NCBI RefSeq assembly: GCF_004137085.1
Contig: NZ_QYBC01000010.1
Coordinates: 62,001-126,000, forward strand
Source of the DNA: Lichenibacterium ramalinae
Lineage (GTDB): Bacteria > Pseudomonadota > Alphaproteobacteria > Rhizobiales > Beijerinckiaceae
Direction of reading: 5' to 3'
DNA length: 64,000 nt
Both the position numbers and the translations under genes were made by a program. Below the pieces are notes generated by a model. That model made no database searches. It had not been told where the DNA came from and was given only the letters and a program-made list of their open reading frames with translations. Every line of letters begins with the position of its first letter. The stretch's first letter is position 1. Positions 41,580-63,888 of the stretch are shown piece after piece.

Positions 41580-41584
41580 CGTCG

Positions 41585-42349: not shown

Positions 42350-42487
42350 GTCGTCTCCGGATTTGGCGCCTCGGGGAGCGCGAGGCGGTGTCGAGATCGG
42401 GGCGTGTCGCTTCGTGGAGCCGGGCGACGGCTCTCCGCCGGCGCCGCCCGCTCTGCCGACCCGCGGAGTGACGCGGCCTCGTGCGGA

Positions 42488-42507
42488 ACCGGCGGGTGTC
42501 CGCCGGT
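42488..42507. repeat. perfect hairpin in the cobL-cobM gap
   Basis: ACCGGCGG and CCGCCGGT (8-base arms) flank a four-base loop. It lies in the 202-bp gap between cobL and cobM. No T-run follows on either strand. Translations of this gap are Arg/Pro-rich without a domain; I see no cobE here. Confidence 0.6.
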
Positions 42508-42551
42508 GGGCGACGAGCGGCGGCCAGCGCAGCCGTCGGGATCGGGGACGC

Positions 42552-43757: not shown

Positions 43758-43774
43758 CCGGTCCCCCCCGCCCC

Positions 43775-46624: not shown

Positions 46625-48069
46625 GGGCAGCGATCCAGGCCGAGGTTGATGGGGAGGAGGTGGCGCACTTCGCCGACGGCGAGTCCGGAGGCGACGGGCT
46701 CGTTCCAGGGGGCTTCGCCGATTACGAGGGAGTAACGCCCCTCGGTCGCCACGAGCGTCAACGGGGCAGGCCCGGGGTGGGCGCAGCCCTTGGCGCAACC
46801 GGAGACGTGGAGAAGGATGTCGTGCGAAGAGTCGCCTGACCCGATCAGCGCGGCCCATGCCGCCGCGTGCTCGAGCACCGGGGTGGTTCCGCGCCGGCAT
46901 CCTGGCGAGCCCGGACAGGCTGCGACGCGGAGGCGGGGGTCGGCGGCGTCCACGATCAGGTCGACTGCGCCGCAGTCCTTCGCGAGGCGGTCGGCGGCTT
47001 CGGGTGAGAGCCCCGGGACGAGCAGGGCTCGCCAGGGTGTGACGCGCAACCCCTCAGCGCCGGCTCGCACCGCGCCGCGAACCAAAACCTCGAACTGCCT
47101 CGCATCGAGTCGGCCGAATGGTGCGGCCACGCCGAGCGTGACCCTGCTCCCGACCGTGAAGGGTCCTACGAACGGGATGGGTCGAATTGGGACGCTTGGC
47201 TCGTCGGTGGCGGCTCGATCGGGACGGAGTCCCACCTTGTGCTCGCGAGGGCGGTAGGACGTCTCGTCACCGTCCGAGTTCTCAACCCGCGGTGCAGCTT
47301 GGGGCACTCGGAAAGGCGGGTTCTGCCGCCTCCCCTCATTCGTGAGAGACGGGTCGATTGATCGACGTTCGGAAGGGTGGGGAGTCCACTTCGGACCGTC
47401 GAGGACGGCTTCGGGGCCGACCCGAGCGACGAGGTCTCGCATGCGCCGCAAGCCGGACTCCGTCGCGCACCACGCGGCGAAGCCACGCATGAAGCCCAAA
47501 GCGACGTCCGGCAGACCCCGCGTGGTGCAAGTCGCGACGACCCGGTCGTCCCCGTCGAGCCGCACCACGAACCGACCGTCGCGCGCGGCTTCGACGCGTA
47601 TGTCGGCCGAGGCGGTCGACAGACGCATCAGCCCTCCGTCGGACACCGCGACGCCGAACTTCGAAGGTAGGTCTCCCAAGTCCTCCGCATCCACGAGCGC
47701 CGCCTCGAGCGCCGTGACGGCAGGGCGAATGTCGAAGGCGGCGGTGGGGTCGAGCCCGGCCAGTGGACTGACGAGGACGTTTCGACGCGACTCCGCGGCG
47801 GGGTCTGCGTCGAGCAAACCGACATCGTCGAGATCTATCGTCAACGCCGGCAGGCCGGCCTCCGTGACGCCCCTCACCTGAACGTTGGCCCTGGCGGTGA
47901 GGTCGAGTAGGCCGTTGCCGTGGCGGGCCGCCGCTCCCGCGATGGCGCCGGCCTGCAGCAGGGTGAGGCTGGCACCGCGCGGCTTCACCCGCACGATCAG
48001 CCCGTCGCCGCTCGCCATGGGGCGGAGCGCGCCGGGGCACCAGCCGACGCGCAGGGCGGCGGCGCTCAT
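46621..48069 (-). CDS. cobG: precorrin-3B synthase CobG
   Basis: A 482-residue nitrite/sulfite-reductase-like monooxygenase that uses O2 to make precorrin-3B, marking the aerobic pathway. The C-terminal part has the Cys residues ACPGSPGCRRG and HVSGCAKGCAHPG for the 4Fe-4S centre. A Pro/Arg/Ser-rich insert (about 238-320) separates the two halves and makes the protein longer than most CobG; its DNA holds a hairpin at 47314-47331. ATG 48069 overlaps the cobN stop. The phase remains open to 50952 upstream, but that is an artefact inside cobN. Confidence 0.92.
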   Translation of the reverse strand: MSAAALRVGWCPGALRPMASGDGLIVRVKPRGASLTLLQAGAIAGAAARHGNGLLDLTARANVQVRGVTEAGLPALTIDLDDVGLLDADPAAESRRNVLVSPLAGLDPTAAFDIRPAVTALEAALVDAEDLGDLPSKFGVAVSDGGLMRLSTASADIRVEAARDGRFVVRLDGDDRVVATCTTRGLPDVALGFMRGFAAWCATESGLRRMRDLVARVGPEAVLDGPKWTPHPSERRSIDPSLTNEGRRQNPPFRVPQAAPRVENSDGDETSYRPREHKVGLRPDRAATDEPSVPIRPIPFVGPFTVGSRVTLGVAAPFGRLDARQFEVLVRGAVRAGAEGLRVTPWRALLVPGLSPEAADRLAKDCGAVDLIVDAADPRLRVAACPGSPGCRRGTTPVLEHAAAWAALIGSGDSSHDILLHVSGCAKGCAHPGPAPLTLVATEGRYSLVIGEAPWNEPVASGLAVGEVRHLLPINLGLDRCP

Positions 48070-51000: not shown

Positions 51001-51356
51001 GGGTCGAGCTGGTCGCAGCCCGGCACGGCGGCGAGGTGGAACCCGTGCCGCCGCGCCGCGGCGCCGAGCTCCTCGAGACCGTAGCGCCAGTAATCGAGGC
51101 CACCCAGGATGCGCACCAGGACGAAGCGCGAGCGCGCCGCCACCTTCTCGACGTAGAGGTCGACCGATAGCGGGTGCCCCAGGCCCTTCAAGGTCGCGAG
51201 CCGCAGGCTCGGCGCCGCTTCCCCCGCCACGCCGGCCAGCGCCGCGAGGTCCCCGTCCGAGAAGGACAGCACCACGAGGTCGGCCGGCGTCTGCGAGACG
51301 TCGACGGCGCTCGGCGCGGGGTCCAGCGACCCTTGGGGAAGCGGCAGCAGGTGCAT
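48066..51356 (-). CDS. cobN: cobaltochelatase subunit CobN
   Basis: A 1,096-residue large subunit of the aerobic ATP-dependent cobaltochelatase, which inserts Co2+ into hydrogenobyrinate a,c-diamide with CobS and CobT (not in this window). Typical segments include HLGTHGTLEWLPGKAVALSG, VYPFIVSDPGEAAQAKRRI, MDLWGSATMRTGGDDLAQAL and the C-terminal NPRWIVGQMRHGFRGAAEI. It is shorter than the about 1,270-residue P. denitrificans type but complete at both ends. It overlaps cobG and follows cobW by 20 bases. Confidence 0.95.
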   Translation of the reverse strand: MHLLPLPQGSLDPAPSAVDVSQTPADLVVLSFSDGDLAALAGVAGEAAPSLRLATLKGLGHPLSVDLYVEKVAARSRFVLVRILGGLDYWRYGLEELGAAARRHGFHLAAVPGCDQLDPRLDALSTLPEPDLRRLWRYFREGGPENLRQAMRFVASRIGRDVAWEEPARLPAAAVSAALSRPGPGGRAPHALLTFYRSALLAGDTAPVAALANALAARGLRVTAVSVASLKDEAAAEALAALIARDPPDVLLNTTAFSARRQGGGTVLDGADAPVLQVVQSGSDRDAWAASDRGLRAADLAMNVVLPEVDGRVLAGTVSFKEAGAPDPTREFSPVLHRPDADRVAHVADLARAWAMLRTTPRAARRLALVLSDYPGKAGRGGYAVGLDAPASLAGIAASLAAAGYRVDTVADPAALMMHLTQGVPEPVLPLAAYERAFARLPAAFRAAVTARWGAPADDRALRDGAFGYPIHRAGSLIVAVQPDRAPTADRRADYHDTALPPCHAYIAFYVWLREVERIHAMVHLGTHGTLEWLPGKAVALSGACAPEAVLGAVPTVYPFIVSDPGEAAQAKRRIAAVTVGHLTPPLVAAGTHGALAEVEALFDEYAEAQGLDARRARLLAAAILERARDAGLLADCGIAEGAAPDDALAGLDAWLCDVKEARIGDGLHVFGGTEARPDGVADCGAAETAGLLAALDGRFVPPGPAGSPAAGRRDVLPTGRNLFSVDPRAVPTRTAVEIGLRAAADFATRYAQDHGDWPRRLVMDLWGSATMRTGGDDLAQALALLGVRPRWHAGTTRVDGFEILPEARLDRPRVDVTLRISGLFRDTFPDQIALFDAAVRAVAALDEDDAMNPLAAARRAGEALDRVFGGAPDSYGIGLARAVASGDFAGRADLGERYLAGTSHAYGGAEAAGHASPGFRDRVAAAESHLHVADLPEVDVLSSDTFAEHQGGFAAAAAALGTVPALYHADATRPGDLRIRTLSEEVARVMRARATNPRWIVGQMRHGFRGAAEIAETVDALFGFAATSDAAPSRHFDLLFDATLGDDAVRDFMVGANPAAARATADRFAEAQARGYWHSRRNSTAAILAGLRSAA

Positions 51357-51376
51357 GGCGCGATCCTATCCCGCCG

Positions 51377-52411
51377 TCACGCCCCGATGTCGACCGCGAT
51401 GGCGGCCCGGTCGATGCCCTTCTCGCCGATCACGACGAGCCGGCCGCGCCGCGCCTCGCCGGGCGCCCAGGGCCGGTCGAACTGCTGGCGGAAGCGGCTC
51501 CCGACCCCCTGCACCAGCAGCCGCATGGGCTTGCCGGCCACGGCCAGGAATCCCTTGGTGCGCAGCACGCCGTGGCGCTCCGCCACGCCGGCGAGCTTGC
51601 GCGTGAAGGCTTCGGGATCGTCGAGGGCCGGGACGTCGAGCACGAAGGAGTCGAAGTCGTCGTGGTCGTGCCCCTCCTCGGCGTCGTGGTGGGAAGGCCT
51701 GTTGGCGAGGTCGTCCTCGGCGGCGGCGCCGAGGCCGAGCAGCACGGCGGCGTCGATCCGGCCCTCGCGGGTCGCCACCACCTTGACGGCGCGCGGCACC
51801 GTGGCGCGGATCTCGGCCGCCACCGCCTCGAGCCGCTCGGGGGCGAGCAGGTCGGCCTTGTTCAGCACCACGAGGTCGGCGCACAGGAGCTGGTCCTCGT
51901 AGACCTCCTCCAGCGGGTTGTCGTGGTCGACCGAGCCGTCGGCCTGGCGCTGGGCGGCGAGCTTGGCGGGATCGTCGGCGAAGCGGCCTTCCGCGACGGC
52001 GGCGCCGTCCACCACCGCCACGACGCCGTCGACGGTGACGCGGGCGCGGATCGCCGGCCAGTCGAAGGCCTTGACGAGCGGCTTCGGCAGGGCGAGGCCC
52101 GAGGTCTCGACCACGATGTGGTCGGGCCGCGGCTCGCGCGCCAGCAGCGCCTCGATGGCGGGCACGAAATCGTCCGCCACCGTGCAGCACAGGCAGCCGT
52201 TGGCGAGCTCGACGATGTTCTCCTCGGGGCAGGATTCGATGCCGCAGGAGCGCAGGATGTCGCCGTCGACGCCGACGTCGCCGAATTCGTTGATGATGAG
52301 CGCCAGCCGGCGGCCGTGGGCGCCCTCGAGCAGGTGGCGGATCAGCGTGGTCTTGCCGGCTCCGAGGAAGCCGGTCACCACCGTCACGGGAACCTTGGCG
52401 AGCGCTTTCAT
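51377..52411 (-). CDS. cobW: CobW-family GTPase, probable cobalt/zinc metallochaperone
   Basis: A 344-residue G3E GTPase. It has Walker A VTGFLGAGKTT, the metal-binding CxCC motif in ANGCLCCTVADDF, Walker B/G3-like VETSGLALP, NKAD in VVLNKADLL, and a His/Asp-rich loop (HHDAEEGHDHDD) that can bind metal. CobW is thought to deliver cobalt to the chelatase. ATG 52411 overlaps the DUF1636 stop; the frame open to 52642 upstream is a shadow. Confidence 0.93.
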   Translation of the reverse strand: MKALAKVPVTVVTGFLGAGKTTLIRHLLEGAHGRRLALIINEFGDVGVDGDILRSCGIESCPEENIVELANGCLCCTVADDFVPAIEALLAREPRPDHIVVETSGLALPKPLVKAFDWPAIRARVTVDGVVAVVDGAAVAEGRFADDPAKLAAQRQADGSVDHDNPLEEVYEDQLLCADLVVLNKADLLAPERLEAVAAEIRATVPRAVKVVATREGRIDAAVLLGLGAAAEDDLANRPSHHDAEEGHDHDDFDSFVLDVPALDDPEAFTRKLAGVAERHGVLRTKGFLAVAGKPMRLLVQGVGSRFRQQFDRPWAPGEARRGRLVVIGEKGIDRAAIAVDIGA

Positions 52412-52809
52412 GCTGTCTGTCCTGCGATGGGGAGCGGGGGCACGCGGGCCACGACGCCGCGCTTGATGGGGTCGGCGCGCAATTTCCAGGGAATCAGCCC
52501 GTCGGGCGTGGCGGCATAGAGGCGGGCGGCCTCGGCCACGACGGGGGCGGTGCCCTCGGCCGGCATGTCGGCGTAGACGTAGGTCCACTTGCCGGGTGCC
52601 GCGAAGGACACCGTACAGGGCCGGCGGCACGCGCTGAGGCATTCGACCGGCACGAGCGCGACGGCGGGATCGGCACCGAACTCGGCCGCCAGCGCGTCGT
52701 GCAGGCGGCGGCCGGCCCGGACCGGGTCGGTCTCGCCCTCCGACCGGCAGGTCACGCAGACGTGGATCGTAGTGACGGCTGGCGGACTCGTCGATCCAGT
52801 GTCCTGCAT
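52408..52809 (-). CDS. DUF1636 family metal-binding protein
   Basis: A 133-residue protein with HVCVTCRSEGETDPVRAGRR and ECLSACRRPCTVSF. The Cys pairs resemble those of thioredoxin-like 2Fe-2S ferredoxins. DUF1636 proteins are common in cobalamin and cobalt-uptake operons and are presumed to bind metal, but no activity is established. It is the first gene after the cobalamin riboswitch and overlaps cobW by four bases. Confidence 0.88.
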   Translation of the reverse strand: MQDTGSTSPPAVTTIHVCVTCRSEGETDPVRAGRRLHDALAAEFGADPAVALVPVECLSACRRPCTVSFAAPGKWTYVYADMPAEGTAPVVAEAARLYAATPDGLIPWKLRADPIKRGVVARVPPLPIAGQTA

Positions 52810-54128: not shown

Positions 54129-54848
54129 TCACGATCGATCGCTCGGTTTGCGGATCCGGCCTGGCTCGCCCGACTCTGCCTCGATCCCGGGGGCCGGGTT
54201 CGCCTCGAACCCTATCCTCTCGGCGGCACTGACGATGTGTTTGCACATCATGTCGGCGGCCGCGTCACCGTCGCCCCTCGCCATCGCCTCGATGATGCGC
54301 CCGTGCTCCTGCCAGACGCTGATCGACATCCCCGGGTAGCGCAGCACCTCTCCCATGGCTCGGCGCAGATGCTTCCAGTGGAGCTTCAGGCTCTCGCCGA
54401 TCAGCGCGTTCCCCGAGAGCTCGTATATGAACGAGTGGAAGTCCACGTCGGCTTGGAGGCTCGCCCTGGCATCGCCGGCGATCATCATGTTGCGGCCGTG
54501 CTCGACGATGGACCTACCCTTCACGATGGCGCTGGTCGACAGCCGCGAGCACCCCAGCCTCACGGCGAGGGGCTCCAGCACGGACCGCATCTGGTATATC
54601 TCGGCGAAGAACTTCATTTCCACTGGCGCCACGGTGAGCCCGCGGCGACCAGACGAGATCAGGAACCCCTGCGACTTGAGAACCGCGAGGGCGTGGGTCA
54701 CGGGTTGTCTGGAAACGTTGAGGCGTGCCGCGATGTCTTCCTGCGTGATGCGCTCACCGGACTTCAGAGTGCCGTCACAGAGAGCGTCCAGGATCACGTC
54801 GTACGCCTGATCGACAAGATGCTTCTCGCTCCTTAGCGTCTCAATCAC
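54129..54848 (-). CDS. GntR-family (FadR/FCD subfamily) regulator
   Basis: A 239-residue regulator. The N-terminal winged HTH (about 10-75) includes ITQEDIAARLNVSRQPVTHALAVLKSQGFL. The C-terminal FCD effector domain (about 85-215) contains the metal-binding pattern with Asp/His in ADVDFHSFIY and His residues in EHGRIIEAMARGD and CKHIVS. It is divergent from the mutase operon with a 249-bp gap that holds a palindrome, so it most likely controls that operon in response to a carboxylate or acyl-CoA. Confidence 0.92.
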   Translation of the reverse strand: MIETLRSEKHLVDQAYDVILDALCDGTLKSGERITQEDIAARLNVSRQPVTHALAVLKSQGFLISSGRRGLTVAPVEMKFFAEIYQMRSVLEPLAVRLGCSRLSTSAIVKGRSIVEHGRNMMIAGDARASLQADVDFHSFIYELSGNALIGESLKLHWKHLRRAMGEVLRYPGMSISVWQEHGRIIEAMARGDGDAAADMMCKHIVSAAERIGFEANPAPGIEAESGEPGRIRKPSDRS

Positions 54849-55023
54849 TTCGGTCCGCTTTCATCACACCGGCCCCGGTCCACAGTCCACTGGGCTCACC
54901 ACGACCGTCACCGCATAGATAGCCGACGCCCCTGCACCGCGCCACACGAGGTGCCCTTTCTCGAACGTATGCTCCGACGCCGGACCGGCCATCCCTGCGT
55001 GCTCCGGATCGCGGGTTCTAACC

Positions 55024-55073
55024 TTGACAGGGGGGCAGGCGTGGATCAACCTCCACTGAATTCAGAGTTCAGT
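55024..55073 (+). promoter_or_regulatory. candidate promoter and GntR operator of the mutase operon
   Basis: A perfect -35 TTGACA (55024-55029) is followed after 17 bases by a weak -10 CAACCT. Just downstream is the palindrome ACTGAATTCAGAGTTCAGT (55055-55073), with outer arms ACTGAA/TTCAGT and an inner CTGAATTCAG. It lies 25 bases before the first gene, where a repressor would block transcription. Confidence 0.5.
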
Positions 55074-55097
55074 AAGAACCAGACAGGGAGAGATTGG

Positions 55098-55502
55098 ATG
55101 CAGCCAGTACGTGTGCTCCTCGCGAAGGTCGGGCTTGACGGGCACGACCGTGGGGTCAAGGTGGTCGCCCGAACCCTGCGCGACGCAGGCATGGACGTCG
55201 TATACACGGGCCTCCACCGCACGCCCGAGGAGGTCGTCAACGCTGCCGTTCAAGAAGACGTCGACGTGCTCGGCGTCAGCCTGCTCTCGGGAGTCCAACT
55301 GACCGTCTTCCCAAAGATCTTCAAGCTACTGGAGGAGAAGGGCGCCTCCGACATGATCGTCATCGCCGGTGGCGTCATGCCCGACGAGGACGTCGTCGAG
55401 CTGAAGAAGATGGGCGTGCGTGAGGTGCTCCTGCAGGATACCCCGCCCGATTACATCGTCTCGACGCTGAACCGTCTCGTGCAAGAGCGCGGTCCGCGCT
55501 GA
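55098..55502 (+). CDS. hcmB: B12-binding small subunit of 2-hydroxyisobutyryl-CoA mutase (HcmB-like)
   Basis: A 134-residue stand-alone cobalamin-binding domain. It has the DxHxxG motif in KVGLDGHDRGVKVV (His as lower cobalt ligand), SLLSGVQLTVFPKIF and IVIAGGVMPDEDV. As a separate small subunit of this size it matches HcmB-type proteins rather than the fused methylmalonyl-CoA mutase. ATG 55098 follows AGGGAG. It is the first gene of the operon, 14 bases before the ligase. Confidence 0.9.
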   Translation: MQPVRVLLAKVGLDGHDRGVKVVARTLRDAGMDVVYTGLHRTPEEVVNAAVQEDVDVLGVSLLSGVQLTVFPKIFKLLEEKGASDMIVIAGGVMPDEDVVELKKMGVREVLLQDTPPDYIVSTLNRLVQERGPR

Positions 55503-55516
55503 TCGGGAGGTTAGCC

Positions 55517-56953
55517 ATGGAAGACTGGTCATTTCCCCCGAGGTACGACGATTCCTACGTCCCACCCGCGGACAGCCGTTACTGGTTTCCGAAGCGGGAG
55601 ACCATGCCGGCTGCTGATCGCGAGAAGCTCATCCTGGAGCGACTTCAGCAGGTCTGCAGTTACGCCTACGACAACGCGCCGTTCTACAGGCGCAAGTGGG
55701 ACGAAGCGGGGTTCCATCCGAGCCACCTGCGTACCCTCGAGGACTTCGAGGAGAAGGTGCCGGTGGTGACGAAGGCCGACCTTCGCCGTTCGCAGGCGGA
55801 GAACCAGCCCTTCGGCGACTACCTGTGCGTCCCCGACAGCGAGATCTTCCACATCCACGGGACGAGCGGCACCACCGGTCGCCCGACAGCGTTCGCCATC
55901 GGTCGGAACGACTGGAAGGCGGTGGCCAACGCCCACGCACGCATCATGTGGGGAATGGGGATCCGTCCCGGCGACATGGTCTGCGTGGCCGCGATCCTGA
56001 GCCTCTACATGGGCAGCTGGGGAGCCCTGGCGGGCGCGGAGCGTCTCGGCGCCAAGGCCTTCCCATTTGGGGCCGGTGCTCCCGGCATGACGATCCGCTG
56101 TGCGCAGTGGCTCGACCTCATGAAGCCAGCCGCGTTCTACGGGACGCCGACCTACGCACTCCACCTCGCCCAGGCGGCGATCGGGGAGGGGTTGGACCCG
56201 CGCAAGTTCGGCCTGCGCGCCATGTTCTTCTCTGGTGAGCCGGGTGCCTCCATCCCGGGCGTCCGGGACAAGATCGAGGACTTCTACGGCGCCAAGGTCT
56301 TCGACTGCGGCTCCATGGCCGAGATGACGCCCTTCATGAACGTCGCCGGCACTTTGGAGACGTCTGGCCTGCTGTGCTGGCAGGACGTGGTCTACACCGA
56401 GGTCTGCGACCCCAAGACGATGAGGCGCGTGCCCTACGGGCAGCGCGGGACGCCCGTCTACACGCATCTCGAGCGGACATCCCAGCCGATGATCCGTCTG
56501 GCCTCTGGTGACCTGACGCTGTGGACGGACGAGCCCAATCCCTGCGGACGCACCTATCCACGCCTGCCGCAGGGCATCTTCGGACGGATCGACGACATGT
56601 TCACGATCCGCGGCGAGAACATATACCCGAGCGAGATCGATGCGGTCCTGAACGAGCTGCCTGCCTACGGCGGTGAGCATCAGATCGTGATCACGCGCGA
56701 GGCGGCGATGGACGAGCTCCTGCTGCGCGTCGAGGCTCATGCGGACGCCGCCTCCAGGGGTGAGGGTGAGGTGGCGGCGTTCCGCGCCGAGGTCGCCCGT
56801 CGCATGCAGAAGATGCTCGGACTGCGCACGGCCGTCGAGATCGTTCAGCAGGGCCTCCTCCCGCGCACCGACTTCAAGGCCCGCCGCGTCGTCGACGACC
56901 GGGCCGTGTTCCGCGAGCTGCGCCAGCAGATCGCCGCGGAGGGTGGTGCATGA
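55517..56953 (+). CDS. hcl: PaaK-like acyl-CoA ligase, probable 2-hydroxyisobutyrate-CoA ligase
   Basis: A 478-residue AMP-forming ligase of the phenylacetate-CoA ligase group. The ATP-binding loop is HIHGTSGTTGRPTAF (about 115-130); FDCGSMAEMTPFMNVAG and GRIDDMFTIRGENIYPSEID are the later core motifs, and LPRTDFKARRV holds the C-terminal catalytic Lys. In known 2-hydroxyisobutyrate degraders a ligase of this length lies with the mutase genes. It presumably activates the branched hydroxy acid with ATP and CoA. It overlaps the GTPase gene by four bases. Confidence 0.85.
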   Translation: MEDWSFPPRYDDSYVPPADSRYWFPKRETMPAADREKLILERLQQVCSYAYDNAPFYRRKWDEAGFHPSHLRTLEDFEEKVPVVTKADLRRSQAENQPFGDYLCVPDSEIFHIHGTSGTTGRPTAFAIGRNDWKAVANAHARIMWGMGIRPGDMVCVAAILSLYMGSWGALAGAERLGAKAFPFGAGAPGMTIRCAQWLDLMKPAAFYGTPTYALHLAQAAIGEGLDPRKFGLRAMFFSGEPGASIPGVRDKIEDFYGAKVFDCGSMAEMTPFMNVAGTLETSGLLCWQDVVYTEVCDPKTMRRVPYGQRGTPVYTHLERTSQPMIRLASGDLTLWTDEPNPCGRTYPRLPQGIFGRIDDMFTIRGENIYPSEIDAVLNELPAYGGEHQIVITREAAMDELLLRVEAHADAASRGEGEVAAFRAEVARRMQKMLGLRTAVEIVQQGLLPRTDFKARRVVDDRAVFRELRQQIAAEGGA

Positions 56954-57912
56954 GTTCGTACGTTCCCTCGATGGAGCTCGTCGAGCGCGTCGTGGCGGGC
57001 CACACGGCCGCCGTCGCGCGCCTCATCTCCCGCGCGGAGGCGGGCGTCGACGAGGCCAAGCCGGCACTCGCCGAGATCTACCGGCGTGCTGGTCGCGCCA
57101 ACGTCATCGGCATCACCGGCGTCCCGGGGTCGGGCAAGTCGACGCTGGTCGCGCGGTTCGCGACCATGCTGCGGAGCCGAGGGCATCGGGTCGGTGTCGT
57201 CGCGGTCGATCCCTCGAGCCCATACTCTGGCGGGGCGATCCTCGGCGACCGCATCCGCATGACCGACCTCGCGCTCGATCCCGACGTCTTCATTCGATCG
57301 ATGGCGACGCGAGGGGCCATGGGAGGCATGGCGCGAGCGGCGCTCGACGCCGTCGACATCCTCGACGTCGCCGGGTTCGACACGGTAGTCATCGAGACGG
57401 TCGGCGTCGGCCAGGACGAGGTCGAGATCGCCAAGGCCTCCCACACGACCGTGGTCGTGTCCGCGCCCGGCCTCGGTGACGAGGTGCAGGCCATCAAGGC
57501 GGGCATGCTCGAGATCGCGGACGTCCACGTGGTTTCGAAGAGCGATCGCAGCGACGCCCATCGGACGCTGGCCGACCTGAAGGGCATGATGACGCTCAAC
57601 GCCCACCACGGGCCGGGGCCGGACTGGAGGGTGCCTGTGCTTGGCATCTCCTCCTACTCGGGCGAGGGCTTCGAAGCGTTCATCGACGCCGTGGAGCGAC
57701 ACCGCGCCCTGACCATGGATAGAGAGCGGGGCAGGCCCCGGCGAATGGCTATCGCGCGCTTCCGCCTGCTGAAGACGGCCGAGAACCTGCTGATGGCGCG
57801 CTTCTCGAAGTTCGCCGCACCGGGCGTGGGTGACCTCGCGTCGCGTCTCGAGGCCCGGAACGGTGACCCATATACGTTGGCCGAGGAACTTGTGGCCGAG
57901 TCTTTAAAGTGA
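56950..57912 (+). CDS. meaH: MeaB/ArgK-type GTPase chaperone of the mutase (MeaH-like)
   Basis: A 320-residue G3E GTPase. It has Walker A GITGVPGSGKST, the family motif DPSSPYSGGAILGDRIRM, switch region ETVGVGQDEVEI and the base-recognition variant SKSD. Such proteins load adenosylcobalamin onto acyl-CoA mutases and protect or repair them. Location between the ligase and the mutase large subunit fits MeaH of the 2-hydroxyisobutyryl-CoA mutase system. ATG 56950 overlaps the ligase stop. Confidence 0.92.
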   Translation: MSSYVPSMELVERVVAGHTAAVARLISRAEAGVDEAKPALAEIYRRAGRANVIGITGVPGSGKSTLVARFATMLRSRGHRVGVVAVDPSSPYSGGAILGDRIRMTDLALDPDVFIRSMATRGAMGGMARAALDAVDILDVAGFDTVVIETVGVGQDEVEIAKASHTTVVVSAPGLGDEVQAIKAGMLEIADVHVVSKSDRSDAHRTLADLKGMMTLNAHHGPGPDWRVPVLGISSYSGEGFEAFIDAVERHRALTMDRERGRPRRMAIARFRLLKTAENLLMARFSKFAAPGVGDLASRLEARNGDPYTLAEELVAESLK

Positions 57913-57938
57913 ACGACAGGGTCTGAGGGAGAACCACG

Positions 57939-59645
57939 ATGGATGACATGACCGACCGTGGCGCGCGCGCGCAGGACCAGGTGGAGGCGATCCGCGCCGA
58001 GGTCCGGGACTGGGAGACCAACGAGGTCGCCAACTTCCTGCGCAAGCAGAAGGAGCGGAAGGACGAGTTCTTCACCCTCGGTGACATCCCGGTCAGACGG
58101 ACCTACACGGCAGCCGACCTGGCCGAGACGCCGCCCGAGGACATCGGCCTACCCGGCCGTTACCCCTTCACCCGCGGACCCTACCCGACCATGTACCGGT
58201 CGCGGAACTGGACCATGCGCCAGATCGCCGGCTTTGGCACCGGCGAGGACACCAACGTCCGCTTCAAGTACCTGATCGCCCAGGGCCAGACGGGCATCTC
58301 GACCGACTTCGACATGCCCACGCTGATGGGCTACGACTCCGACCACGCCATGAGCGAGGGCGAGGTCGGCCGCGAGGGCGTGGCCATCGACACCCTGGCC
58401 GACATGGAGGCGCTGTTCGACGGTATCGACCTCGAGAACATCTCTGTGTCGATGACGATCAACCCGAGCGCCTGGATCCTGCTGGCGATGTACATCGCCC
58501 TGGCCGAGAAGCGCGGGTACGACCTCAACAAGCTCAGCGGCACCGTTCAGGCTGACATCCTGAAGGAGTATATGGCGCAGAAGGAGTACATCTTCCCGGT
58601 GGAGCCATCGGTACGCATCGTGCGCGACTGCATCACCTACTGCGCCAAGACGATGAAGCGCTACAACCCGATCAACATCTCGGGCTACCACATCTCGGAG
58701 GCGGGTTCGTCGCCGTTACACGAGGCCGCGTTCACCCTCGCGAACCTCATCGTGTACGTCGAGGAGGTGCTCAAGACGGGCATGACGGTCGATGAGTTTT
58801 CCCCTAGACTCGCGTTCTTCTTTGTCTGTCAAGCGGACTTCTTCGAAGAGGTCGCGAAGTTCCGCGCTCTCCGGCGCTGTTACGCTAAGATCATGAAGGA
58901 GCGGTTCGGCGCCAAGAACCCGGAGTCGATGCGCCTGCGCTTCCACTGCCAGACGGCAGCCGCCTCGCTCACCAAGCCGCAGTACATGGTCAACGTCGTC
59001 CGGACCTCCTTCCAAGCCATGGCGGCGGTGCTCGGCGGCTGCCAGTCGCTCCACACGAACGGCTACGACGAGGCCTTCGCCATTCCCACTGAGGATGCCA
59101 TGCGGATGGCGCTCCGGACCCAACAGGTGATAGCCGAGGAGTCCAACGTCACCCAGGTCGTCGACCCCCTAGGTGGTTCGTACTACGTGGAAAGCCTGAC
59201 CACGGAGTACGAGAAGCGCATCTTCGACATCCTGAAGGAGGTCGAAGAACGTGGCGGCACGCTGAAGATGATCCAGGACGGTTGGTTCCAGCGCCACATT
59301 GCCGACTTCGCCTACGAGACCGCCCTCCGCAAGCAGTCGGGCGAGAAGCCGGTGATCGGCGTGAACCGCTTCGTCGACGACACGCCCGATCCCAAGATCC
59401 ACACCCATCCGTACGACCAGACCACGGCCGACCGTCAGGTCGCCCGGACGCAGCGGGTCCGGCGCGAGCGCGACGCGGCCAAGTACGACCTCCTCATGGA
59501 GCGTTTGGTGGAGACGGCGAAGGATCCCCAACAGAACATGATGCCAGTGACGATCGAACTCGTCCGCGAGGGCGCGACGATGGGTGAGATCGTCGAGAGG
59601 CTGAAGGCCATCTGGGGCACCTATCGCGAGGTGCCGGTTTTCTGA
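57939..59645 (+). CDS. hcmA: 2-hydroxyisobutyryl-CoA mutase large subunit (HcmA-like)
   Basis: A 568-residue TIM-barrel substrate subunit of a B12-dependent acyl-CoA mutase. RGPYPTMYRSRNWTMRQIAG places Ile96 where methylmalonyl-CoA mutase has a Tyr, and GISTDFDMPTLMGYDSD gives Asp123. These correspond to Ile90 and Asp117, the diagnostic residues of 2-hydroxyisobutyryl-CoA mutase from Aquincola. It has no fused B12 domain, consistent with the separate small subunit. The expected reaction is 2-hydroxyisobutyryl-CoA to 3-hydroxybutyryl-CoA. Related pivalyl- or isobutyryl-type substrates cannot be fully excluded. Confidence 0.9.
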   Translation: MDDMTDRGARAQDQVEAIRAEVRDWETNEVANFLRKQKERKDEFFTLGDIPVRRTYTAADLAETPPEDIGLPGRYPFTRGPYPTMYRSRNWTMRQIAGFGTGEDTNVRFKYLIAQGQTGISTDFDMPTLMGYDSDHAMSEGEVGREGVAIDTLADMEALFDGIDLENISVSMTINPSAWILLAMYIALAEKRGYDLNKLSGTVQADILKEYMAQKEYIFPVEPSVRIVRDCITYCAKTMKRYNPINISGYHISEAGSSPLHEAAFTLANLIVYVEEVLKTGMTVDEFSPRLAFFFVCQADFFEEVAKFRALRRCYAKIMKERFGAKNPESMRLRFHCQTAAASLTKPQYMVNVVRTSFQAMAAVLGGCQSLHTNGYDEAFAIPTEDAMRMALRTQQVIAEESNVTQVVDPLGGSYYVESLTTEYEKRIFDILKEVEERGGTLKMIQDGWFQRHIADFAYETALRKQSGEKPVIGVNRFVDDTPDPKIHTHPYDQTTADRQVARTQRVRRERDAAKYDLLMERLVETAKDPQQNMMPVTIELVREGATMGEIVERLKAIWGTYREVPVF

Positions 59646-59704
59646 GGACGCCAGCCCGCGCCCTCGACCGCCGGGGGTCGACCTCACCGCATCGGAGTGA
59701 CCTG

Positions 59705-60760
59705 TTGTCGATCGAACCCCGACCCTTGATCCTGCCCTTCGCAGGCGTCAGCCCCGCTTTCGCAAGTCCTCCTTCGACCAGCGGCGCGGGTGCCAGCGTG
59801 CTCGGCCGCGTGACGGTCGGCGCCGACCTAGTCCTAGGCCCCTTCGCGGTGATCCGAGCCGACGGGGAGACAGTGTCGATCGGCGCCGGGTTCTGCCTCG
59901 GCGAGGGATCGACCGTGCACATCGCGCACGGCCTCTTCGCGACCGTCATCGGTGATCGCGTGGCGGTGGGGCGGAACGCGGTGGTCCACGCCTGCACGGT
60001 CGCTGACGATTGCGCGATCGAGGATGACGTCGTCATCCTCGACGCCAGCGTCGTCGGCGCCGGCGTGCTGATCGAGGCGGGATCCACCATCTACCCGCGC
60101 TCGACGTTGGAGCCGGGCGGGCGCTACGCCGGAAGCCCGGCCGTCAGGATAGGTAGCATCTCGCTCGAGGAGTGCCGGGAGCGGGTGGCGTCGATCCGGG
60201 CCGAGGCCGCCGTCGCGGCGGCGCGGCAGATCAGGACCGAGGGGCGCTGGGGAGACGACGGCCGGGGAGCGCATTTCGTCGCCGACACGGCGGTGGTCCG
60301 CGGCGACCTCGTCCTGGCACCTGGCGCCGGCGTGTTCTTCGGATGCCGGTTCGACGCGGCCGCCGTTACGGTCGGACGCAACACAAACATCCAGGACAAC
60401 AGCGTCGTCACCGCGCCGGAGGGCGTGGTGACGATCGGCGACGACACGACCATCGGTCACAACGTCCGCATGAGCGCCTGCCGCGTGGGATCCCGGAGTC
60501 TCGTGGGTATAGGCGCCGTCCTCGGCGAGGGAACGGTGGTCGAGGACGACGTGCTCGTGGCTGCCGGGACCGTGACCACCTACGGCCAGGTGCTAAGGTC
60601 CGGGTGGCTGTGGGGCAGTCGCCCCGCCAAGCCCCTGAAACCCCTCGACGACGCCCGTCGGTCCATGTTGTCCGAGACCATCGGGCACTACGTCGCCTAC
60701 GGGCACGCGTTCCGCGACGCGCAACGGAGCTTGGCCGCGCGCCGCGAGGGCGCCGGATAG
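59705..60760 (+). CDS. tandem left-handed beta-helix (hexapeptide-repeat, gamma-carbonic-anhydrase-like) protein
   Basis: A 351-residue protein made of two gamma-CA/PaaY-like units: residues about 25-150 (GRVTVGADLVLGPFAVIRAD to AGSPAVRI) and about 175-320 (VRGDLVLAPGAGVFFGCRFD to GSRPAKPL). Both show hexapeptide turns and the end signature G-S-x-A; His residues are few (TVHIAHG, VVHACTV in the first, IGHNVRM in the second), so carbonic anhydrase activity is uncertain. The start is TTG 59705 after GGAG. Single-unit proteins are the norm, so the fused duplicate is unusual. It follows hcmA by 59 bases and is likely in the operon. Confidence 0.78.
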   Translation: MSIEPRPLILPFAGVSPAFASPPSTSGAGASVLGRVTVGADLVLGPFAVIRADGETVSIGAGFCLGEGSTVHIAHGLFATVIGDRVAVGRNAVVHACTVADDCAIEDDVVILDASVVGAGVLIEAGSTIYPRSTLEPGGRYAGSPAVRIGSISLEECRERVASIRAEAAVAAARQIRTEGRWGDDGRGAHFVADTAVVRGDLVLAPGAGVFFGCRFDAAAVTVGRNTNIQDNSVVTAPEGVVTIGDDTTIGHNVRMSACRVGSRSLVGIGAVLGEGTVVEDDVLVAAGTVTTYGQVLRSGWLWGSRPAKPLKPLDDARRSMLSETIGHYVAYGHAFRDAQRSLAARREGAG

Positions 60761-60868
60761 GCGGTCCGGCGTCAGGCCGGGCGAACCGCCGCCCGCACGA
60801 CGAGCACCGCCAGATGACGAATCGAAGCGCGACGAGCCGGAAAGGCCGGGCACCAGGGGGAGGGATCC

Positions 60869-62170
60869 ATGACGATCGAAGCCGTATCGATGACCACGGA
60901 CGCGAGCGCGACTCGAACGCTCTACAGCAAGGTCATGTGGCGAATCATGCCGTTGCTCTTGGCCTGCTACATCGGGGCCTACCTTGACCGAGTTAATGTC
61001 GGTTTCGCCAAGTTGCAGATGCTGAAGGACCTCGGCCTCTCCGAGACCGTGTACGGGCTCGGCGCCGGCATGTTCTTCGTCGGGTATGTGATCTTCGAGA
61101 TCCCCAGCAACATGCTCATGATGCGGGTCGGCCCCCGCGCCTGGATCGGTCGCATCCTGATCACGTGGGGCATCATCTCCGCCCTCACGTTGGTGACCAC
61201 GTCCGCGAACATGTTCTACGCGTTGCGCTTCCTGCTGGGCGCCGCCGAGGCGGGGTTCATCCCCGCGATCATCTACTACCTGATGATCTGGTTCCCCTCC
61301 TCGCAGCGCGGCAAGGCCTCGGCGCTGTTCCTCGCGGGAATCCCGCTCTCGGGCGTCATCGGCGGCCCGCTGTCTGGTTGGCTGATGAGCGCGCTCGACG
61401 GCAAGGCGGGTCTCGCGGGCTGGCAGTGGATGTTCCTGGTCGAGGGTCTGCCGGCCGTCATCCTGGGCATCCTGTGCTTCGTCCATCTCGACAACTCGAT
61501 CGATGCCGCACGATGGCTGACGACCGCGGAGAAGGACAAGATCCGCGCCGACGTGGTGGCCGAGAGCCGTGACAAGCCTCTGGTCTCGGCGCGCGACGGC
61601 CTTCTCGACAGGAGGGTCTGGATCCTCAGCTTCACCTACTTCTTCTTCACCATGGGTCTCTATGGCGTCAGCTTCTGGCTCCCGTCGATCATCAAGGACA
61701 GCGGGGTGAGGGATCCGCTGTCCGTCGGCCTGCTCACGGCCATACCGTACACGGGGGCCTTCGTGACGATGATCCTTGTGGGCAGGAGTTCGGACCGGCA
61801 CCGCGAGCGCCGATGGCATCTCGCTCTTCCGGCCCTGGTGGGTGCCGCCGGGCTCGTGGTCAGCGTCATCTACTCGCAGAACACCGTGGTCGCGCTTGCG
61901 GCTCTCACCGTAGCCTCTTCCGGCATCCTGACCTGCGTGCCGCAGTTCTACGTGCTGCCGCCCGCGATCCTGACAGGTGCGGCGGCGGCCATGGGCCTCG
62001 CGGTGGCGAACTCGGTCGGCAGTGTCGCTGGGTTCATCAGCCCCTACCTCCTCGGCTACGTGAAGGACCTCACGGGCAGCACCAACGCGGGCGTGCTCGT
62101 CCTCTCGGTCGCGCTCATCATCGGCGCCGCGATGGTCTTCGTGACGCCTGCCCGGATGGTGAACCGGTGA
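60869..62170 (+). CDS. MFS transporter, anion:cation symporter family
   Basis: A 433-residue protein with about twelve membrane segments. The first loop contains CYIGAYLDRVNVGFAKLQML, the signature of ACS-family carboxylate transporters (tartrate, phthalate, glucarate types). A ribosome site GGGGGAGGG precedes ATG 60869. In this operon it most likely imports 2-hydroxyisobutyrate or a similar organic acid. It overlaps the ThDP enzyme gene by four bases (GTGA). Confidence 0.9.
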   Translation: MTIEAVSMTTDASATRTLYSKVMWRIMPLLLACYIGAYLDRVNVGFAKLQMLKDLGLSETVYGLGAGMFFVGYVIFEIPSNMLMMRVGPRAWIGRILITWGIISALTLVTTSANMFYALRFLLGAAEAGFIPAIIYYLMIWFPSSQRGKASALFLAGIPLSGVIGGPLSGWLMSALDGKAGLAGWQWMFLVEGLPAVILGILCFVHLDNSIDAARWLTTAEKDKIRADVVAESRDKPLVSARDGLLDRRVWILSFTYFFFTMGLYGVSFWLPSIIKDSGVRDPLSVGLLTAIPYTGAFVTMILVGRSSDRHRERRWHLALPALVGAAGLVVSVIYSQNTVVALAALTVASSGILTCVPQFYVLPPAILTGAAAAMGLAVANSVGSVAGFISPYLLGYVKDLTGSTNAGVLVLSVALIIGAAMVFVTPARMVNR

Positions 62171-63888
62171 GCCCTGTCCCGCGGCAGACCGCCGCGGTCA
62201 TCGCGCGGGTCCTTCGAACGCGCGGAATCGAACGGATCTACGGACTGTGCGGCGGTCACGTCATGCCGATCTGGATGGCGTTGGCGGAGGAGGGGATCCG
62301 TATCGTCGACGTCCGTGACGAGCGCGCCGCCGTCCACATGGCACAAGCGGAGGCCGAACTGACCGGCCGCGTCGGTGTCGCCCTAGTCACCGCCGGACCG
62401 GGAGTCACCAACGCCCTGACCGGCATCGCCAACGCCCACGTGTCACGCACGCCCGTGCTCGTCTTGTCCGGCACCACTCCCAGGCCGCAGGAGAACAGGG
62501 GCGCGCTCCAGGACATGGACCACCCGAGCCTCGTGCGACCGGTGACGCGCTACGCACGCACCGTCCGAGACCCGGCCCTCGTGCCTCAGGAGCTCGCCGA
62601 GGCCTTGGCACGCGCGGAGGGCGAGGGTGGCGACCCAGGTCCGGCCTTCCTGGATTTCCCCACTGACGTGCTGAGGGCGCCCGTCCCCGCGAGCATGCTG
62701 CTCCCGGAGTTGGTCGAGCCTCGTCCACGGTTCCGCGCTCGCCCCGCTCCCGAGGCCGTGGCGAGCGCCGTGGACCTGCTCTGGTCGGCGCGCCGCCCGG
62801 TCCTCCTGGCCGGCCGAGGCGCGCGCGGCTCCGGCGCCCGGGTTCGAGCTCTGATCGCCAGACTCGGCTGTCCCTACCTCGACACCGGGGAGAGCCGCGG
62901 CTTGGTGCCGGAGGACGACCCGAACGCAGTGGGGTCGATGCGCGGCCGCGCCATGGCGGAGGCGGATCTCGTGGTCACGCTCGGGCGGCGGCTTGACTTC
63001 CAGCTCGCCTATGGATCGCCAGCCGTCTTCCGAGCCGCGCGATTCCTGCGCATCGCGGACAGCCCTGCCGAGTTGCGCGACAACCGATCCGGTGCGCTGG
63101 CAATCCTCGCGGACGTCGGAGAGACGCTCGAGGCGATGCTGCGCCACGCCGCGGACCGCCCGTCCTCCGTCGACCCGCGCTGGGCGGCGGAGTTACGCGA
63201 CGGGCATGCGGTCCGCGCGGCTTCGTTGCGGAAGACCCTGGCGGAGGCGCCGACGGGGGCGGACGGTCACATGCACCCCAATCGACTCGTCGCCGCGCTG
63301 CGGGACGTGCTGCCCCCGGACGCCACGCTGGCGATCGACGGTGGCGACTTCCTGAGCTTCGCACGCGTCGGCCTCTCGGCCGCCGCGGTCCTCGATCCCG
63401 GGCCGTTCGGTTGCCTGGGCGTCGGCGTGCCCTACGGCGTTGCGGCCGCGCTGGCCTACCCCGAACGGGTGACGGTGGTGGCGACGGGCGACGGAGCCTT
63501 CGGCTTCAACGCCGTCGAGATCGACACGGCGGTGCGCCACGATGCCAAGGTGCTGTTCGTGGTGGCCAACAATCGGGGCTGGCAGATCGAGGTCCGCGAC
63601 CAGGAAGTCACCCACGGCCGGGTCGTCGGGACCACGCTGCGGGACGCCGACTACGCCGCCATGGCGCGAGGCCTCGGGCTCTATGCCGAGCGGGTGGAGA
63701 GGGCCGAGGACCTGCCGGATGCGCTCGCACGCGCCCTCGCCCGGCGACCGGCCCTGCTCGACGTGGTGGTGACGTCCGACGCGGTCTCGTCCGACAGCAG
63801 GAGCGGGTTGGCCTGGGTACCCGACCTCCAGCCGTTGGCGGCTTGGAACGAGGCGGAGGCGGCGTGGCGGAAGTCCGGCGACGCATGA
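62167..63888 (+). CDS. thiamine-diphosphate-dependent enzyme (acetolactate-synthase/2-hydroxyacyl-CoA-lyase superfamily)
   Basis: A 573-residue ThDP enzyme with the three standard domains. The Pyr domain has the catalytic Glu in VDVRDERAAVHMAQAEAELT and ALVTAGPGVTNALTGIANAH. The middle domain is about 190-325. The PP domain has GDGAFGFNAVEIDTAVRHDA and ANNRGW for Mg-ThDP. Similar proteins are often labelled acetolactate synthase, but there is no small subunit and no branched-chain amino acid gene nearby. Location suggests a 2-hydroxyacyl-CoA lyase or a 2-ketoacid enzyme linked to hydroxyisobutyrate breakdown. GTG 62167 overlaps the transporter stop. Confidence 0.82.
   Translation: MSPVPRQTAAVIARVLRTRGIERIYGLCGGHVMPIWMALAEEGIRIVDVRDERAAVHMAQAEAELTGRVGVALVTAGPGVTNALTGIANAHVSRTPVLVLSGTTPRPQENRGALQDMDHPSLVRPVTRYARTVRDPALVPQELAEALARAEGEGGDPGPAFLDFPTDVLRAPVPASMLLPELVEPRPRFRARPAPEAVASAVDLLWSARRPVLLAGRGARGSGARVRALIARLGCPYLDTGESRGLVPEDDPNAVGSMRGRAMAEADLVVTLGRRLDFQLAYGSPAVFRAARFLRIADSPAELRDNRSGALAILADVGETLEAMLRHAADRPSSVDPRWAAELRDGHAVRAASLRKTLAEAPTGADGHMHPNRLVAALRDVLPPDATLAIDGGDFLSFARVGLSAAAVLDPGPFGCLGVGVPYGVAAALAYPERVTVVATGDGAFGFNAVEIDTAVRHDAKVLFVVANNRGWQIEVRDQEVTHGRVVGTTLRDADYAAMARGLGLYAERVERAEDLPDALARALARRPALLDVVVTSDAVSSDSRSGLAWVPDLQPLAAWNEAEAAWRKSGDA

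Follow-up and report, generated by a model that had tools for sequence, protein, structure and literature searches.

2-Hydroxyisobutyrate (2-HIBA) is a key metabolite in the breakdown of MTBE and tert-butyl alcohol, and two enzymes that act on its CoA thioester (2-HIB-CoA), a B12-dependent mutase and a ThDP-dependent lyase of the AcHACL type, are both of interest for methacrylate precursors and for C1 assimilation (PMC7176365; PMC8760513). The literature mostly treats mutase and lyase as alternatives in different bacteria: operons of the type found in Aquincola tertiaricarbonis L108 and Methylibium petroleiphilum PM1 are described in print as mutase genes, ligase, GTPase and regulator, whereas the cluster of Actinomycetospora chiangmaiensis pairs a lyase with a 2-hydroxyisobutyrate-CoA ligase (HCL) and has no mutase. 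A lyase in a mutase cluster has already been mentioned for Mycolicibacterium sp. ELW1, whose authors consider it possibly part of a minor route (PMC13188929; 2026). More distantly, the acetone clusters of the sulfate reducers Desulfococcus biacutus, Desulfosarcina cetonica and Desulfotomaculum spp. also combine a ThDP enzyme, a B12 mutase and a dehydrogenase around 2-HIB-CoA (PMC8084838).

The locus described here lies in a window of 64,000 nucleotides from Lichenibacterium ramalinae (contig NZ_QYBC01000010.1), where the eight genes of positions 54129-63888 are all open reading frames. A GntR/FCD regulator gene (54129..54848, minus strand; Pfam FCD 95.7 bits, GntR 43.9 bits) diverges from seven co-directional plus-strand genes: hcmB, for the small B12-binding mutase subunit (55098..55502, ATG at 55098), hcl, for a PaaK-type ligase (55517..56953), meaH, for a MeaB-type GTPase chaperone (56950..57912), hcmA, for the large mutase subunit (57939..59645), and the genes of a beta-helix protein, an MFS transporter and a lyase. 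The gaps between them are 14, -4, 26, 59, 108 and -4 nt, the first of the negative values being a 4-nt overlap of the meaH start with the hcl end. Gene order and direction predict a single operon, hcmB-hcl-meaH-hcmA-LbH-MFS-HACL; a terminator-like hairpin (59616-59635) overlaps the end of hcmA, in a region with three terminator-like sites found against 2.7 expected. The operon sits within a cobalamin synthesis island, and a PduO/HBDH pair lies about 5.5-7 kb downstream on the opposite strand.

The regulator-hcmB-hcl-meaH-hcmA order is that of PM1, with which order was compared, and in PM1 too HACL and LbH follow downstream (hcmB-hcl-meaB-hcmA-hyp-PduO-HACL-LbH-PduO-HBDH); the PM1 operon differs in including two adenosyltransferases and HBDH, where the window has the MFS gene instead. 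Cluster 2 (ibc) of ELW1 shares with the window mutase, ligase, auxiliary protein, GntR regulator, MFS gene, adjacent cobalamin genes and ThDP lyase, but it is actinobacterial and its lyase is likened here by description rather than by sequence (PMC13188929). We rejected the acetone formylation cluster of sulfate reducers as the type of this locus: that type has an RcmAB-type mutase, a ThDP enzyme family of its own and no HCL, whereas the window combines HcmA with HCL and a lyase of the AcHACL type. According to its authors, D. biacutus has an RcmAB-like mutase, a ThDP enzyme 22% identical to AcHACL and no HCL, and the opposite direction is proposed for it (PMC7176365).

The core set of hcmB, ligase, GTPase and hcmA recognised in the first-pass annotation is borne out by family matches: HcmB finds 4r3u chain C as its best solved match (224.5 bits), HCL finds 6hdw, a 2-hydroxyisobutyryl-CoA synthetase (859 bits, against 244 for the next best), and MeaH scores 295.1 bits with TIGR00750 (cut-off 240.75). 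HcmA is 81.2% identical to the crystallised 2-HIB-CoA mutase 4r3u, whose chain A is its best match by a wide interval (1040 bits, the next match reaching 446). The expected Ile96 and Asp123 are present and invariant in all 84 HcmA rows (80 loci, the window and three plasmids), in the numbering of the window protein, whereas the methylmalonyl-CoA mutases of human and of the own genome carry Tyr and Ala there; we take this Ile/Asp pair at the substrate positions to be diagnostic for the 2-HIB-CoA mutase. In a quick tree one branch (SH-aLRT 91) separates 85 HcmA rows from four others, so that the proposed phylogeny groups HcmA with the characterised enzyme and apart from methylmalonyl-CoA mutases, in a tree built without isobutyryl-, ethylmalonyl- or pivalyl-CoA mutase or RcmA reference rows. 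The B12 subunit is encoded separately, and its gene, meaH and hcl share the cluster with hcmA. The window mutase probably acts as a 2-HIB-CoA mutase, a function we infer from the 81% identical enzyme.

The last gene (62167..63888, GTG start), annotated at first pass only as a ThDP enzyme, encodes an AcHACL-type 2-hydroxyacyl-CoA lyase (HACL), a sharper reading that gives the mutase a neighbour whose characterised relative uses its own substrate. The protein scores 782.7 bits with NF058623 (cut-off 600) and 583.7 bits with AcHACL (7pt1; 51% identity), and retains, in AcHACL positions, Glu65, Leu127, Gln128, Ile492 and Glu493 and a C-terminus of lid length, thereby including the catalytic Glu493 and Gln128 and the size-limiting Leu127 and Ile492; lyase family, Glu493/Gln128, lid and HCL partner are thus shared with the A. 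chiangmaiensis cluster. Arg273, Arg362, Arg417 and Asp561 are kept as well, whereas Gln41 is replaced by Cys, Gln255 by Gly, Lys564 by Ser and Ser274 by Gly. Since Gln41, Gln255 and Lys564 hold Glu493 or bind CoA in AcHACL, Gln41 being the residue that holds the catalytic glutamate, the substrate or rate of the window enzyme may differ. Residue 41 is mostly Cys among mutase-linked lyases, and the Cys41 and Gln41 lyases differ at 17 clade-specific positions, Gln41 and Gln255 included; because Gln41 and the full set of CoA contacts, which are properties of AcHACL itself rather than of a published family definition, are not all retained, we file the window enzyme as a Cys41 subfamily of AcHACL-type lyases. 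Cleavage of 2-hydroxyacyl-CoA is its presumptive activity.

Of the three downstream genes whose recurrence was in question, lyase and beta-helix protein do recur within 10 kb of hcmA (27 and 44 of 80 loci, respectively), and the transporter does so far less (6 of 80). HACL is encoded elsewhere in the genome in 8 of 48 further HcmA genomes, giving 35 of the 75 examined, as against 11 of 284 genomes of the class without HcmA (p about 2e-18, for two samples drawn differently and with related genomes kept); its absence from the other 40 makes it optional to HcmA. The two enzymes treated as alternatives thus co-occur in about half of the HcmA genomes examined, and also on the plasmid carried by PM1, an MTBE degrader, where an HcmA 99.6% identical to 4r3u shares its operon with HACL. 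The co-occurring lyases mostly belong to the subfamily lacking the residue that holds the catalytic glutamate, and this co-occurrence makes testable the job of the lyase beside the mutase, the removal of formyl-CoA and the catalysis of LbH. HACL and LbH overlap by 4 nt in PM1 and likewise in three further loci (L043, L044, L047), whereas in three Methylobacterium loci (L014-L016) HACL diverges from hcmB across one short intergenic region. Rieske oxygenase genes, which we take to be MdpJ-like (tert-alkyl alcohol), adjoin five loci, all five with HACL.

The protein between HcmA and the transporter, previously called a double beta-helix protein, is present and is better described as a gamma-carbonic-anhydrase-like tandem (LbH, 59705..60760, TTG start as listed) with complementary histidines in its two halves. 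Sequence and fold matches support the left-handed beta-helix fold: the AlphaFold2 model has a mean pLDDT of 94.4 and a pTM of 0.92, and the best Foldseek matches reach a TM of about 0.4 over the query, about half of which they cover. Half 1 holds His72 and His95, and half 2 holds His252 with Asn228, Gln230 and Asp231; the metal-binding histidines, whose roles we assume by reference to Cam, are divided two and one and never occur all three in one domain. LbH may accordingly bind a metal, presumably at one site shared between the halves. It was set apart both from gamma-carbonic anhydrases proper (no three-His domain; NF050158 137.5 bits, cut-off 250) and from the PaaY family (TIGR02287 78.8 bits, cut-off 319.6), and only a PaaY-like working is proposed. 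PaaY trimers are built from single-domain chains. We suggest, tentatively and with some doubt, that LbH is a PaaY-like CoA thioesterase freeing CoA from formyl-CoA or from stuck 2-hydroxyacyl-CoA; PaaY, a CoA thioesterase of a PaaK pathway, shares with this setting the gamma-carbonic anhydrase fold, the PaaK-type ligase and a GntR-family regulator, and differs as a trimer from a tandem with split ligands (PMC4498308). The account of A. chiangmaiensis identifies no formyl-CoA hydrolase (PMC7176365), and the D. arcticum cluster has an acetone-induced 'carbonic anhydrase/acetyltransferase' beside ThDP enzyme and mutase (PMC8084838). For ELW1, the main text mentions neither 'carbonic anhydrase' nor 'hexapeptide' (PMC13188929). 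LbH stands without a nearby HACL in 24 of 80 loci, and one genome (G013) without an HcmA match has LbH away from hcm.

On balance we lean towards a role in catabolism: the operon would degrade short tertiary 2-hydroxy acids, whose activated pool could be drained in two ways. The MFS protein would take up 2-hydroxyisobutyrate or a near relative and HCL would form the thioester, which HcmAB, kept active by MeaH, would convert to (S)-3-hydroxybutyryl-CoA, to be passed on through 3-hydroxybutyryl-CoA dehydrogenase. With an AcHACL-type lyase in the hcm operon there are two predicted exits for 2-HIB-CoA: HACL would reversibly split C4-C5 2-hydroxyacyl-CoA into ketone and formyl-CoA, yielding acetone from 2-HIB-CoA, as a side exit that would mainly serve the C5 acid (2-hydroxy-2-methylbutyryl-CoA) or overflow, without replacing the mutase. 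For mutase, ligase and lyase alike, the best match is an enzyme characterised on 2-HIB-CoA or 2-HIBA, and the rates of AcHACL on 2-HIB-CoA and on 2-hydroxy-2-methylbutyryl-CoA are similar (PMC7176365; PMC8760513). Several observations weigh against this reading: the lyase is optional, its residues 41, 255 and 564 differ from those of AcHACL, the own genome shows no acetone carboxylase gamma that could serve as an acetone sink, LbH also occurs apart from HACL and from hcm, and a terminator-like site overlaps the end of hcmA. The suggestion of a fuller route is reasonable, with the direction, substrate and importance of the lyase as predictions within it, but 40 of the 75 HcmA genomes examined lack the lyase.

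Were the lyase to run in reverse, joining formyl-CoA to acetone or butanone for the mutase to linearise, the operon would serve ketone assimilation, as an aerobic analogue of the acetone pathway in sulfate reducers. The own genome gave no match to acetone carboxylase gamma, a family matched in 19 of 289 genomes of the class, which leaves room for a different acetone route; some of the hosts are members of methylotroph genera (four Methylobacterium, one Methylibium, and PM1) and might therefore have C1 units available. AcHACL is reversible (PMC8760513), and acetone-grown sulfate reducers share the logic of ThDP enzyme, B12 mutase and dehydrogenase, in D. arcticum also with the 'carbonic anhydrase/acetyltransferase' (PMC8084838). 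We nevertheless find this reading unlikely, for HCL in the operon indicates a free acid as substrate, no formyl-CoA-forming enzyme is recognised there, and all seven own-genome matches to the formyl-CoA transferase Frc fall below the cut-off. Methylibium T29, moreover, whose operon probably carries HACL judging solely from locus-tag numbering, is reported to grow on 2-HIBA and formate but not acetone (PMC4517660). Similarly doubtful is an extension of this reading, whereby Cys41 lyase and HcmAB would together make up a natural aerobic path that joins C1 units in two steps, from formyl-CoA and a short ketone through a tertiary 2-hydroxyacyl-CoA to, by the B12 mutase, a 3-hydroxyacyl-CoA; LbH, as a fused gamma-carbonic-anhydrase-like protein with one metal site common to two unlike halves, would be a dedicated formyl-CoA/acyl-CoA hydrolase setting the balance, and the operon would work in both directions, with either branched acids or ketones as its input.

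That lyase and mutase use different cofactors on the same predicted intermediate would also fit a cobalamin-independent bypass, in which the lyase carries 2-HIBA catabolism once shortage of B12 or cobalt stops the mutase, and A. chiangmaiensis indeed degrades 2-HIBA by a lyase without a mutase (PMC7176365). ELW1, however, has both genes and still requires Co2+ for growth on 2-HIBA (PMC13188929), and the surrounding cobalamin island makes B12 shortage seem less likely, which leaves the bypass very improbable. Scarcely more credit goes to the idea that the operon chiefly handles some other tertiary 2-hydroxy acid of related structure (e.g., from isoprene or tert-amyl compounds) to which the Cys41 lyase would be tuned, 2-HIBA being incidental: the 17 clade-specific positions and the five Rieske-linked loci, all with HACL, speak for it, but HcmA and HCL closely resemble enzymes studied with the C4 acid, and the own genome gave no match to that Rieske protein in a search run without a positive control.

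Expression of the preferred catabolic operon would start from a divergent promoter under GntR control. In 41 of 74 hcmB-holding loci, a relative of the regulator is found on the opposite strand no more than 1.5 kb upstream of hcmB, and in 48 no more than 6 kb upstream. Just 5' of hcmB, an operator-like inverted repeat (55055..55073; 89% complementary, with 9-nt arms separated by 1 nt) is a candidate regulator site; its core, CTGAATTCAG, occurs in 9 of 74 hcmB upstream regions, the window counted and near relatives kept in the set, whereas the best palindrome in 20 shuffles reached only one to three regions.

The MFS gene (60869..62170), of the anion:cation symporter type, scores 160.9 bits with PF07690 and 307.5 bits with TIGR02332 (HpaX), below the cut-off of 615.4, and is a candidate importer of the hydroxy acid. 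Its recurrence is confined to a few alphaproteobacteria: the six loci comprise four of Methylobacterium (69%), one with a 79-residue piece (L010) and one with a 46% match some 8 kb off (L021), and an Agrobacterium plasmid operon outside the 80 loci has a 73% match 3' of LbH and adenosyltransferase.

The seven genes from hcmB to the lyase gene HACL occupy 55098-63888 on the forward strand and diverge from the gene of a GntR/FCD regulator (54129-54848); they follow one another in the order hcmB-hcl-meaH-hcmA-LbH-MFS-HACL with intergenic gaps of 14, -4, 26, 59, 108 and -4 nt. The top matches of HcmB, HcmA, HCL and MeaH are characterised subunits of 2-hydroxyisobutyryl-CoA (2-HIB-CoA) mutase, the 2-hydroxyisobutyrate-CoA ligase and MeaB-type GTPases, and HcmA is 81.2% identical to the A. 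tertiaricarbonis mutase (structure 4r3u) versus 43.7% to the methylmalonyl-CoA mutase of its own genome. Ile96 and Asp123 are kept in all 84 HcmA rows compared (the best 80 of 328 related stretches, the window and three plasmids). The core set proposed in the first-pass annotation, including these two residues, holds. The phylogenetic check proposed there was answered in part: in a quick tree a branch separates all 85 HcmA rows (4r3u among them) from 4 other rows, and since the tree contains no isobutyryl-, ethylmalonyl- or pivalyl-CoA mutase or RcmA rows, the separation of HcmA from those enzymes is drawn from identity and residues.

The last gene, previously described as a ThDP enzyme, does belong to that family and can be named more precisely as a 2-hydroxyacyl-CoA lyase of the type characterised in Actinomycetospora chiangmaiensis (AcHACL; Rohwerder et al. 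2020, PMC7176365): it scores 782.7 bits against the NCBIfam equivalog NF058623 (cut-off 600), and AcHACL entries head its matches among solved structures (583.7 bits for 7pt1, against 237.5 for the first enzyme of another kind). A single operon would thus hold two enzymes, mutase and lyase, predicted to act on one CoA thioester. The family assignments of the operon proteins, drawn from sequence, are strong, and it is the physiology that we infer; our preferred reading of the operon is a two-exit 2-hydroxyisobutyrate system whose lyase module is optional.

That the extended operon is real and recurrent, as first suggested, was confirmed by scanning genome contigs for HcmA and inspecting the 10 kb around hcmA in the best 80 of 328 related stretches, counting HACL at 45% identity over at least 250 aligned residues and LbH, the tandem left-handed beta-helix protein, at 30% over 250. 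Lyase relatives were found in 27 of the 80 loci, LbH relatives in 44 and both together in 20; the third additional gene, the MFS transporter, recurred in 6. Across the 49 of these loci whose flanks reach 5 kb or more upstream and 4.5 kb or more downstream, both genes were present in 17, HACL alone in 3, LbH alone in 13 and neither in 16, a co-occurrence with p = 0.007 when kin are kept in. For the 53 loci without a nearby HACL, 48 genomes were searched, with both positive controls matched, and 8 hold HACL elsewhere (loci L081, L083, L086, L087 and L088 fell outside this search); overall, HACL was present in 35 and absent from 40 of 75 HcmA genomes examined from the same best 80 of 328, many of them draft metagenome bins. 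Of 289 class genomes sampled evenly, 5 have HcmA (own genome included) and 16 have HACL, with HACL in 5/5 HcmA genomes; excluding the own genome, the lyase accompanies HcmA in 4/4 cases, from two families, versus 11/284 other genomes (p = 5e-6). Among 60 closer relatives HcmA occurs in the own genome and in one other (G041, in which no HACL match was found), and it was found in none of five same-genus genomes, a distribution that suggests lateral gain.

The classic mutase operon, as on the plasmid of Methylibium petroleiphilum PM1, also includes the lyase. There, a GntR gene is followed by hcmB, an AMP ligase, meaB, hcmA (product 99.6% identical to 4r3u), a hypothetical gene, an adenosyltransferase, HACL (annotated merely as a 'thiamine pyrophosphate-binding protein'), a 'gamma carbonic anhydrase family protein', a further adenosyltransferase and 3-hydroxybutyryl-CoA dehydrogenase; genes for a reductase and a Rieske protein come a few kb later. 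Within the literature found, supplements and subscription papers being beyond its scope, the accessible text on Mycolicibacterium sp. ELW1 (PMC13188929) was the one account of an AcHACL-like ThDP lyase inside a 2-HIB-CoA mutase cluster, where it is possibly part of a minor route; proteobacterial HcmAB-HACL operons, the lyase subfamily with Cys41 described below and the tandem LbH had no account in that literature. Clusters of the D. biacutus type, as far as the accessible text describes them, combine other enzyme families than HcmAB and an AcHACL-type lyase.

A large cobalamin synthesis island surrounds the operon: cobB, cbiD, cobM, CbiE/CbiT, cobJ, cobH, cobG (a fragment of which, when tested, fell below its cut-off), cobN and cobW precede it at 38234-52417, and cobT, a nickel/cobalt transporter, PduO, 3-hydroxybutyryl-CoA dehydrogenase, cobQ, cbiB and threonine-phosphate decarboxylase follow it (4597-15283 of stretch L135), PduO and the dehydrogenase lying 5.5-7 kb downstream on the opposite strand. 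In ELW1, too, cobalamin genes adjoin the mutase. The lyase might be a B12-free bypass replacing the mutase when B12 is short; we rate this as low in probability because ELW1, according to the accessible text, requires Co2+ though its lyase gene is present (PMC13188929).

Within the AcHACL-type lyases, position 41 separates two groups, with Cys in 38 of 56 rows, Gln in 17 and Ile in one outlier, a second lyase-like copy (L177) excluded from the clade counts. On a 47-row tree the Gln41/Cys41 switch is a single event, and hcm linkage needs 4 changes versus 14.7 in shuffles. A threshold of at least 85% singles out seventeen positions that distinguish the clades; they include Gln41 to Cys, Gln255 (in contact with CoA in AcHACL) to Gly and Arg494 to Val. 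Glu65, Leu127, Gln128 and Glu493 do not vary in either clade. The accessible account of AcHACL by Zahn et al. (PMC8760513) describes Glu493, Gln128, Gln41, Leu127, Ile492 and a lid. Since most Cys41 loci were picked through HcmA, the bias is smaller in the evenly drawn genomes, where, own genome excluded, HcmA stands alongside Cys41 in 3/4 and alongside Gln41 in 1/14 (p = 0.019, kin kept in). Exceptions exist in both directions: two hcm-linked lyases (L084, G286) carry Gln41, and Cys41 lyases with no hcm seen occur in G012 and Azoarcus KH32C, whose chromosome lay outside the search. The alignments leave out G344, whose lyase is cut short, and 3 of the 27 HACL-bearing hcm loci (L050, L058, L071); the L031 lyase runs off its contig end. 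A 520-aa AMP ligase adjoins 14 of the 17 Gln41 lyases, with mutase genes absent nearby. This stand-alone pair was seen in 13 genomes (L118-L126, L129, L131-L133), a GntR match accompanying it in 6 of the 13 stretches, and also on the Cupriavidus plasmid pRK1-1 (L091 8375-11698).

The product of LbH, rightly described at the outset as a double beta-helix protein, has two left-handed beta-helix domains in 351 aa. Its AlphaFold2 model (mean pLDDT 94.4, pTM 0.92) finds YrdA, RicA and gamma-carbonic anhydrases as best Foldseek matches, over about 150-220 columns, or about half the query (TM 0.35-0.45 over the query); none of the 50 matches listed extends over the entire protein. In an alignment to YrdA and across 44 rows of 280-520 aa, window included, half 1 keeps His72 and His95 (each 43/44) and lacks the middle metal-His position, and half 2 keeps that position alone (His252, 44/44) plus an Asn-x-Gln-Asp motif; a separate alignment took rows of 280-420 aa, excluding L080 and L086. 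The metal of Cam sits between subunits, so for LbH, with its complementary His positions, a natural reading is one putative metal site per chain, shared between unlike halves. PaaY, a thioesterase of the gamma-carbonic-anhydrase fold in the PaaK pathway according to the accessible text (PMC4498308), may serve as a model for its function. A role at the 2-HIB-CoA/lyase node is supported by the 4-nt overlap of the HACL and LbH genes in L043, L044, L047 and PM1, and by an acetone-induced 'carbonic anhydrase/acetyltransferase' in Desulfotomaculum arcticum (PMC8084838, accessible text), likened to LbH by description. A purely lyase-bound LbH was rejected, 24 of the best 80 of 328 loci having LbH without nearby HACL, as was a strictly hcm-bound one, given tandem copies elsewhere in G013, G133 and G342. 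Tandem relatives away from hcm lie at L156 8022-9203, L157 7696-8892 and L158 6710-8578, the latter two with like neighbours: a 420-aa protein, an AMP ligase and a 380-aa protein with a decarboxylating-dehydrogenase-like start.

The MFS gene belongs to a minority of these operons, and its standing as a widely conserved component was rejected on the 6/80 count: four Methylobacterium loci have relatives of 69% identity, L010 has a 79-residue segment, and in L021 a gene matching at 46% lies about 8 kb off. Elsewhere, a 47% match adjoins a stand-alone lyase in Cupriavidus, and a 73% relative follows LbH and an adenosyltransferase on the Agrobacterium deltaense plasmid pEL101-243 (L093 257-13298), whose hcm operon also has genes for a GH3 glycosidase and an MFS protein directly upstream. 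Upstream of the window's hcmB lies an inverted repeat (55055-55073) whose core turns up in front of 9 of 74 hcmB genes versus at most 3 in shuffles, near relatives kept in.

As to substrate sources, cyanogenic glucosides (linamarin, lotaustralin) were set aside: a nitrilase-motif regex, run without a positive control, gave no match in the window and most loci, and the literature found offered general background; the GH3 gene of A. deltaense is the single hint in their direction. Searched with the L044 Rieske protein as a proxy for tert-butanol oxygenase, and without a positive control, the own genome gave no match. Related Rieske oxygenase genes, which we take to be MdpJ-like, lie near hcm in L044, L047, L052, L071 and L085, with HACL in 5/5. 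On the side of the sinks, acetone carboxylase gamma is absent from the own genome and matched in 19/289 class genomes, including 2/5 HcmA genomes (G155, G263); seven own-genome matches to a dedicated formyl-CoA transferase all fall short of the Frc cut-off, and the top match for formate dehydrogenase alpha reaches 586.9 bits, below the cut-off of 666.25. A mutase that shares 56% identity with HcmA is encoded on a Shinella plasmid (L160 6563-12099); it has Val and Asp at the Ile96 and Asp123 positions, has a B12 subunit, MeaB, an aminotransferase, an enoyl-CoA hydratase and an AMP ligase as neighbours, and possibly acts on another substrate; mutases like it, less than 60% identical to HcmA, occur in 20 plasmid records.
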